DNA of 64,000 bases from Echinarachnius parma (taxonomy: Eukaryota > Echinodermata > Echinoidea > Clypeasteroida > Echinarachniidae), in the NCBI GenBank assembly GCA_037951105.1, contig JBAMJV010007481.1, positions 26,001-90,000 of the forward strand, written 5' to 3'. The notes beneath the pieces are model-generated. The model saw only the letters and a list, made by a program, of their open reading frames with translations. It searched no databases and had not been told where the DNA came from. Position 1 is the stretch's first letter; the number at the start of each line of letters is the position of its first letter. The position numbers were made by a program, and so were the translations under genes. This document shows, piece by piece, positions 21,901-24,900 of this stretch.

Positions 21901-24900
21901 ATAACAAAATAATGCACAATCATTTTAAATAACAGTTCCAAATTTACATAGAGGATAAATTATAACTTCTTTATAAAGCACACTTGAAAAGTGACAAACA
22001 CTACGCTTATATTTATAAGATTTCGCACATAATAAATAAATATAAATATAAAATTGATGAAAATATGTAATTCTCAATTTGTCTTATCAAAGCTTTCATT
22101 TTATTTTTGTACATTTTTATTTTAGTAAATGGGAAATGTAACAAATAAATTTGGAAGAGAATTTTCTATCAATCTTTATATTCACCTTGACAGCTTTGCC
22201 AAAGAATCCCTGGCCTAGCACTTCCCCCTTCACAAGGTCTGAAGCCCTGAATATCCTGTGGTTTTTATTGGACACCCTGTACGACTGCGTTCGAGAGAGC
22301 GGTGATATAGGGCTGCATATTCCTGGAGAGTTGCTGCGTCTGAAAAAATATGGGGGGAAATATAGATAAATATTTAGTTTCAGACTTAAAAAACAACATG
22401 AAGATAAAGACAATTGTACCCTGTTTGGTATATTAGCAACAATAGTTGAAATAAATTATTTTCTTCTGTGGCTTTTGTTTGGACACCCTGTATGACTGCG
22501 TCCATGAAAGTGATGACGTTGGGCTGCATATTCCTGGATAGTTGATGCGTCTGAACAAATTTTTAAAATGGGGAAACTACAGTATAAAAGGAAATATTTC
22601 TTTACAGACTTAAAATACAACATGAAGATAAAGAAAATGCACCCTTTTCGGTTCATCAGCAAAACAAAAAATAAAACAAAGCATTTCTCAGTGATTTTTG
22701 TTTGGACATCCAGTACAACTGGGTTCTAGATAGTGGGGATGTAGGGCTGCATATTCCTGGATAGCTGCTGCATCTGAAAAAAATATTGGGAAATTAAAGG
22801 GAAATATTTAGTTACAGACTTAAAATACTACATGGACATAAAAACAAAGTACCCTTTTTGGACCATTAGCAACAATAACTGAAATTATTTTGTTCTGTGG
22901 TTTTTGTTTGGACACCCTGTATGACTGGTTTCTAGATAGTGGTGATGTAGGGCTGCATAGTCCTGGGCCTCGATAGTTGCTGCATCTAAACAAATATTGG
23001 GAAACTAAAGGGAAATATTTAGTTACAGACTTAAAATAACAACATGGAGAAATAAAATGAAAGTACAGTATGTGCACCTTTTTGTTCCACCCCCCCCCCC
23101 CCCATTTTTGTAATCAATTAATTAATTAATTTTAAAAAATACAAAATGAAATTGGAAAGAAAAAAAATAATTAAAATACACCATTTCCTTCTGTGGTTTT
23201 TATTTGGACACCCTGTTTGACCAGGTAAATGAAAACAGTGATGCTGGACTTTTTCTGTACTTGAATGGGTAAAACTTTAGCTGCAACTTTGGCATTTGAT
23301 GACACACGCAGTACCCCGGGGTACCGTTGTACCCCGGTATCCCGCGTTGTGTAGCGCCATCTTGCATCCAACCGTACCGCAGCTATTGCGTTGTGCATGC
23401 AGTGCGCGATTGTTTGCACGCTATACCCACAGTACAGCCCTAAAAATTAAATAAATAATTAAAGGGGACCACCAGGCAAAGGACAACACATTATTATATG
23501 TTTTGGTACTGTTTTGTGATATCAAATAGATACCCAACATTTTGCAAAGGGTTTTGTAATTCATAAACAAAGCAATTAATTTCCACTACTTACGGAACCA
23601 CGGCTATCTCGTGGTTCCACATGGGCCAGGCATTTGCGAGTGCGCCAATGCAATTCACGCGTACGTCAATAGAATCCCGGATGATTCGTTCGCTCTGCAT
23701 AGAGCGCCGCTGGCTCTGCTCGCATAATAGTCTGCGCATTCAGACCGCATGACCGCATGGCTGAGAATGGTGATGCGTTTTCCAATTATTTTTTTTTTTC
23801 TGAAAACATATTTTTGTGAACTTATTGAAGGAATGGAATACTAAAGATGTTACCTTTCTATAAAAAGATTATTATTTTTGGGTGGTGGTACCCTTTAAAC
23901 AAAATGGCGGATTTTCGTCTGGTACCCCGGGGTACCGTTTATGTCATCATTTATCTACTTACACTTCTTCCCAGTGGCCCGATGATGCACGAACGACACG
24001 TGACCCACTAGAGTGGTCATGTGACAGGCTTCGGTAAAACGTCTCCACAGCCATCATGGTGGAACCCGAACCGTATGTAAAGTCTAAACCTCTTTTTCCG
24101 GTAGATAGTTATGGAAAAGCTATAATTCCTGTGAGGGTTTCACTCACTGGTCAGAAAAACGATTAACATTGGAATAAAGAGTAGCAAAAGTTTCACACTC
24201 CTTTAAATTCACCGGGACGTTCAACCTCGTAGACAGTTCTAAAATCCACTCATTTGTGAATAATGGTATGGCATCACAATGACTTTCTTGATAGAACTGC
24301 AACATGTATGTTCCTGCCAGCAACATGCAACATGATCAAACAAGCTAAAGTGGTTCCATAAAGAGCACAGAACTTGTCAGCATCCAATTTATAAAAATAC
24401 AAATAATAATACAAATTTCAAATCCAAGATGTTCAAAAGCTTCACACCAGCCAAAAATAAACAATCGATGTGTAAACACCACTTTCAATCTGATGAATAA
24501 AGCAGTCTAAAATGCACTACAAACTTCTGTTCTGTTCCGCTCTAATATTGAAAGTATATATACTAGATAATAATAGCTACTGATGTACCAATCAATACTA
24601 AAAGTAACAACACGTTGTACAACCGTAAAATGAACAACCAATCAGATTCTGCCTGTAAATCCAATAGTCTCATTTGACCACTGGTGACCGATTATCTCTT
24701 GTCATGCGTCACAGTAGCTTCCTGCGACAAGTGAGAAAAAACACTTCTGAAAAACCCCAAAGGCCACCAAAACACAACAAACTGTACAATTTCCTGCTTT
24801 GCGCCTATTAATAATAACCACAGCCGCCCTTCCCTTCCGATACCAACTTATTGATTAATCTGAAGTGGGATCGTTCAATTCTAGTAATTTTTCCCTCATA

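Follow-up and report, generated by a model that had tools for sequence, protein, structure and literature searches.

A LIM kinase gene and a second copy of its locus

The window analyzed here is a 64-kb stretch of DNA, bases 26001-90000 of contig C7470 in a 1.20-Gb animal assembly of 14,790 contigs, and its minus strand carries a LIM kinase (LIMK) gene. Fourteen coding exons, positioned by eye, join into a single open frame that encodes 642 residues before a TGA stop (Table 1). In the chained protein, the Pfam LIM family matched two stretches (9.3e-18), one covering LIM2 and the other the second half of LIM1, and a PDZ domain was found between the LIM and kinase parts (PF00595, 27.7 bits for a cut-off of 23.2). 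The joined kinase parts had LIMK1 and LIMK2 as their five top matches in the PDB (3.4e-62 to 1.3e-55), followed by EGFR at 2.8e-21. Their catalytic motif, DLNSNN, is one residue apart from the DLNSHN motif given in a figure legend on LIM kinases (PMC10000741). A search by cysteine/histidine patterns only recovered neither the normal start nor the first half of LIM1 in the 12 kb upstream of 62803 on C7470 or in about 21 kb upstream on contig C4269.

Table 1. Positions of the LIM kinase exons, the candidate start exon, and neighboring repeats (window positions unless a contig is named).
Feature	Position	Strand	Basis or remark
LIM1b exon (LIM1 second half, LIM2 start)	62668..62803	-	exon chaining
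LIM2 exon	48892..49001	-	exon chaining and Pfam
Exon between LIM2 and PDZ exon	42928..43173	-	exon chaining
PDZ exon	38342..38435	-	exon chaining and Pfam
Linker exon (PDZ end and Ser/Pro region)	35218..35558	-	normally joins exon 6; donor in phase 2
LIMK exon 6 (P-loop exon)	22186..22339	-	phase-2 acceptor
Kinase exon 7	21728..21814	-	exon chaining
Kinase exon 8	21002..21089	-	exon chaining
Kinase exon 9	20589..20629	-	exon chaining
Kinase exon 10	15613..15672	-	exon chaining
Kinase exon 11 (catalytic HRDLNSNN)	15139..15204	-	exon chaining
Kinase exon 12 (DFG, activation loop)	14602..14767	-	exon chaining
Kinase exon 13	13985..14195	-	exon chaining
Last coding exon 14 (TGA end)	12841..12970	-	exon chaining
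Candidate alternative first exon (ATG, 31 codons, phase-2 end)	23963..24057	-	sequence reading; intact in C4269 copy
Donor GTAAGT of candidate exon	23957..23962	-	
In-frame TAA 54 nt upstream of candidate ATG	24109..24111	-	same distance in other copy
Candidate exon in other copy	C4269:161773-161867		ATG, frame, GTAAGT, and TAA at 54 bases all retained
TIR element, about 650 bases (arms 29 nt, 86% complementary)	23297..23949	.	self-comparison
Tandem array whose units copy the exon 6 acceptor plus roughly the first 84 nt of that exon	22242..23262	-	self-comparison
LIM1b exon, partial copies	62658-62738 with 62517-62597 and 62219-62305		
LIM2 exon, partial copy	48883-48956 with 48720-48793		
Exon between LIM2 and PDZ, partial copy	42954-43073 with 42631-42747		
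Exon 14, partial copies	12831-12953 with 12647-12769 and 12479-12570		

C4269 is colinear with the window over most of the LIMK gene, with 84-99.6% identity in blocks of at least 700 bases. Because the order matches across most of the gene, the C4269 copy is read as the other haplotype; the same colinearity makes an origin from a paralogous gene unlikely, a recent whole-gene duplicate being a formal possibility. Between the two copies, the differing codons of the 14 true exons comprise 26 synonymous and 8 nonsynonymous cases. A 20-kb block (32262-52505) is 99.6% identical between the haplotypes and lies beside blocks of about 84-98%, which may reflect recent shared ancestry or an assembly effect.

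Elsewhere in the window, open reading frame (ORF) pieces on the plus strand at 4301-5473 resemble, as judged by eye, an RNA pseudouridine synthase. The tRNA and Rfam scans returned one tRNA and nothing at the locus of the candidate exon described below; this tRNA-Ala (AGC), on the minus strand at 9786-9860, is possibly part of a SINE.

A candidate start exon upstream of exon 6

Within the 12.9-kb intron that precedes exon 6, the sequence-only reading had placed an alternative start exon predicting a LIM kinase devoid of LIM and PDZ domains. The structure it described was found as claimed: a CCACC-ATG at 24057, directly followed by a further in-frame ATG, opens 31 codons plus 2 nt that run to 23963 and end at a phase-2 GTAAGT, and an in-frame TAA begins at 24111. 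The proposed phase fit was also borne out, as exon 6 needs one base for a full codon. Since the linker exon ends in phase 2 and exon 6 starts in phase 2, the candidate could stand in for the linker exon. Joining 23963 to 22339 indeed yields a protein of 365 aa with a complete kinase domain. In this predicted protein, Pfam detected a single protein kinase domain at residues 69-333 (E 4.5e-52), only two kinase families passed their cut-off, and PDZ gave no match at E 0.001. The N-terminal region that would be missing restrains the kinase in LIM kinases. For the candidate peptide, a PDB search gave no relative at E 1, and the 48-aa ORF that contains it had no Pfam match.

Donors and acceptors were scored in bits with approximate matrices. 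The candidate donor 9-mer (AGT/GTAAGT) is without the usual exonic G, and its 2.2 bits equal the lowest value among the five true donors for which a score was computed (2.2-5.2). The same 9-mer, AGTGTAAGT, ends both the candidate and the true linker exon and has no third instance within the window; at least two instances occurred in 10 of 100 shuffles. On the acceptor side, 16 AG sites between 24330 and 24058 were scanned. Only three of them keep the frame open, and they scored -8.5, -10.4, and -13.5, versus 1.7 to 11.5 for six true exons, which rules out an in-frame internal cassette exon under this matrix. As no plausible in-frame acceptor lies upstream, the candidate, if coding, is a first exon or is preceded by untranslated sequence only.

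The scan also bears on another type of real exon: one in first or second position that is untranslated or translated poorly, or a seldom-used cassette adding a stop to the long transcript. The best acceptors, at 24146 (0.8 bits) and 24313 (0.7 bits), approach the weakest true one (1.7), and from both of them in-frame stops precede the ATG, a point in favor of such an exon. However, the in-frame form of a cassette fails on the scores given above and the linker exon is already in frame with exon 6 without the candidate, and we consider this explanation improbable.

The upstream flank had been described as unusually repeat-poor. This description held for 24058 to about 25028, where neither an array nor a self-match within the window was detected, but failed in the 1.6 kb that separate the candidate from exon 6. 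The core of the TIR element (23459-23898) recurs at 54939-55380 with 91% identity, and the element is missing from the C4269 copy, where its flanks are joined. The exon 6 array has a unit of about 211 bases, a spacing of 206-296 nt, and a diverged fifth copy. Its copies present acceptor-like ends at 22550, 22773, and 22985; that at 22773 reached 5.2 bits, compared with 8.1 for the true exon 6 acceptor, and the other copies at most 3, again with the approximate matrix. A short transcript, like the normal one, must splice past the array copies.

The array also differs between the haplotypes, with about 4.8 kb of extra sequence inside it on the other one (C4269:162953-167727). All three amino acid differences between the exon 6 sequences of the two haplotypes (S/Y, P/S, and I/T; 22256-22339 compared with C4269:168027-168110) fall inside the array-repeated part. 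Two exon 6 codons of the other haplotype (TAT and ACA) match array copies, which may represent shared ancestral states or gene conversion from the intronic copies.

Chance, retention in the second copy, and a possible kinase-only isoform

An ORF of this kind could arise by chance, as a GC-richer patch of intron with an ATG in a favorable context and an in-phase GTAAGT and with no transcript start. The expectation was estimated from first-order Markov simulations of the minus strand (200 sequences), counting each GTRAGT in the phase of its own intron that closed at least 93 open nt from an ATG. Without a Kozak demand, three cases were observed (exon ends 24148, 23963, and 23594) for a null mean of 0.84, and these looser phase-matched cases are a point in favor of chance. 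With a Kozak score like that of the candidate, one was observed for a null mean of 0.07, and at least one was present in 6.0% of the simulated sequences (P 0.06), which speaks against a chance origin. When both strands were taken and introns disregarded, the null mean was 0.23 (60 simulated sequences). This test is suggestive only, because the thresholds were fixed after seeing the candidate and many other features could have been picked. In the window itself, with both strands counted and true exons included, Kozak-like ORFs of 93-400 nt ended at five, three, and one distinct donors (score of at least 2) in phases 0, 1, and 2, respectively. For phase 2 and any ATG ORF of 93-400 nt, the number of distinct donors was 18, again over both strands and with a score of at least 2, a supply that favors a chance origin.

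Codon usage was scored by log-odds trained on the 14 LIMK exons, leaving out three other apparently coding stretches. The candidate obtained 0.303 per codon, which is the 47th percentile when ranked against 611 windows of 31 codons from the true exons. This value was reached by 0.6% of 17,695 stop-free non-coding stretches, by 4.4% of the 1,644 that were GC-matched, and by 2.8% of 19,930 when the three other apparently coding stretches were retained. The composition of the candidate is exon-like, which counts against a chance ORF, but the frame-specific part of the signal is weak: 29.6% of the GC-matched non-coding stretches reached it, 15% of exon windows were as low, and, in the scoring that retained the three other stretches, the reading frame shifted by 2 outscored that of the candidate (0.392 versus 0.289). 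The resemblance to an exon is therefore largely one of base composition, which is compatible with chance. The GC content is 54% in the candidate exon versus 23% in the 13 nt past its donor.

A genome search with 149 bases, in which very common words were skipped, found the window and, among the best-scored candidates, one other place (C4269:161721-161867, 97%). With no other match in the window and this single other place among the best-scored candidates, an origin of the exon from a repeat or mobile element was rejected. Between the copies, the candidate exon shows three substitutions in 95 bases: one turns V into A, and the others leave a V and a G unchanged. Two of the three are synonymous, versus 27% expected without constraint, which counts against a chance ORF although the changes are too few for significance. 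The exon is nonetheless more diverged than its flank, a point in favor of chance: the 993 bp upstream showed 7 mismatches in a 996-column alignment, and the 53 aligned bases just upstream of the candidate had no substitution and two indels. A sharp conserved promoter island was not seen, low divergence spanning about 24.3 to 29.1 kb bar a few windows.

The fate of comparable ORFs in the second copy was followed with a set of 38 non-exonic ATG-to-donor ORFs of 93-200 nt, from which the regions at 1-2 kb and 4.1-5.5 kb (other apparent genes) had been excluded beforehand. Fourteen were unalignable, 10 lay in a nearly identical block (8 intact and 2 broken), and 14 lay in diverged sequence. In this last group, the candidate and two others were intact and 11 of the 13 controls were broken, where broken means any length change and the controls overlap (three at 19.7-19.9 kb and two at 24.1-24.3 kb) and are not all independent. 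The comparison favors the candidate over a chance ORF. Its survival is less telling because local divergence is low (0-0.7% at 24.3-25.8 kb), which weakens the second-copy test in favor of chance.

The kinase-only reading thus stands as regards coordinates, phase, upstream stop, domains, length, and an intact second copy, but the candidate is not clearly beyond chance, and the reading is further weakened by the frame-specific codon signal and by the divergence of the exon relative to its flank. The sequence shows an open frame, a start, a donor, a phase match, an intact kinase domain, and retention in both copies. The best-supported reading, a tentative one to which we give somewhat less than an even chance, is that 24057-23963 is genuinely an alternative exon that begins the coding sequence, comparable to that of tLIMK2. 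A chance ORF is likewise judged to fall a little below even, the two being about as likely as each other.

If the exon is real, a short transcript would arise from a second promoter within the intron upstream of exon 6, and its first exon would be spliced to exon 6, past the array. Translation from the ATG at 24057 would then give a LIMK reduced to its kinase, without LIM domains, PDZ domain, and Ser/Pro linker. By analogy with N-terminally truncated LIMK1, such a protein may be more active than the full protein and differently located. A LIM-less isoform of LIM kinase 2 produced from an alternative initiation exon, tLIMK2 or Limk2t, is described for mouse testis in passages of two papers (PMC8834001, PMC10000741). 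According to the same passages, tLIMK2 shares with the predicted short LIMK the lack of LIM domains, an alternative initiation exon, and a retained kinase domain, which is complete in the predicted 365-aa protein. However, the PDZ domain is missing only in part from tLIMK2, which is known from transcripts (PMC8834001, PMC10000741), whereas the short LIMK is predicted from sequence and would lose the whole PDZ domain and the linker as well. Caspase-cleaved, N-terminally truncated LIMK1, described in the passage concerned as constitutively active, is likewise a kinase without its N-terminal region, but it arises by proteolysis and not, as predicted here, by an alternative exon (PMC10000741). Alternative promoters and 5' exons are described for LIMK2 in parts of two further papers, which makes it a LIMK gene with alternative 5' exons, as proposed here (PMC6143958, PMC1431701). 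A limited literature search found no paper title on invertebrate LIMK isoforms, from which we do not claim their absence from print.

The LIM-less kind of LIMK is thus already known in mouse; what would be new is the lineage, together with a loss that takes in the whole PDZ domain and the linker. That an echinoderm LIMK has its own intronic promoter for a LIM-less, PDZ-less kinase appears doubtful. If it were so, two distant deuterostome lineages would have isoforms freed of N-terminal restraint, whether as an ancient germ-line device or through convergence, and splicing of the exon would have to bypass the decoy acceptors of a polymorphic exon 6 array. Should the exon be used, promoter choice could release LIM-kinase activity toward cofilin in an invertebrate deuterostome, as in mouse testis. 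Should it not be used, the locus would exemplify how readily a convincing start exon arises in 64 kb.

Mirage-like repeats at exon boundaries

The exon 6 array resembles the "mirages" of amphioxus, tandem repeats over exon boundaries that are reported, in the parts of the sources at hand, not to disturb splicing (PMC3087553, PMC3902484). Its three further copies with an acceptor-like AG span the intron/exon boundary, and one of them scores above 3 bits. As described in the same sources for the globin gene BflGb6, amphioxus mirages also repeat the intron end, the acceptor, and the 5' part of the exon, with a unit of 150-160 bp compared with about 211 in the exon 6 array; these mirages are reported in lancelets (PMC3087553, PMC3902484), whereas the LIMK repeats belong to another lineage, with an ambulacrarian mitochondrial code.

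This assignment comes from COX1 of the same assembly (contig C14600). Its 18 ATA codons, in an alignment read by eye, face 12 Ile, 3 Leu, 1 Val, and 2 Met in PDB chain 5j4z_BN, and its AAA codon, at the one alignable site, faces Asn in each of the three mammalian chains displayed. According to a published account, reading ATA as Ile is characteristic of echinoderms together with hemichordates, and reading AAA as Asn is characteristic of echinoderms (PMC2697986). The code points to an echinoderm, a conclusion resting on one AAA codon and on C14600 belonging to the animal, and it contradicts a lancelet origin of the genome, which the mirages had suggested. The LIMK locus shows exon-boundary repeats of the lancelet mirage type outside lancelets, and one of these repeats is confined to a single haplotype of the two.

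Local partial copies were found for 6 of the 14 LIMK exons, compared with 270 of 1000 random non-exonic segments (P 0.15). As random segments are often repeated too, a preference of the repeats for exons is not demonstrated, and exon-targeted duplication was not retained as an explanation. The 3' part of kinase exon 7 and its donor are duplicated (21538-21607 and 21721-21790, 98.6%). The other haplotype does not have this copy, and its exon 7 leads on into what comes after the copy in the window; the duplication is polymorphic between the two copies of the locus. For LIM1b and for exon 14 alike, the other haplotype has at least three further copies, compared with two in the window.
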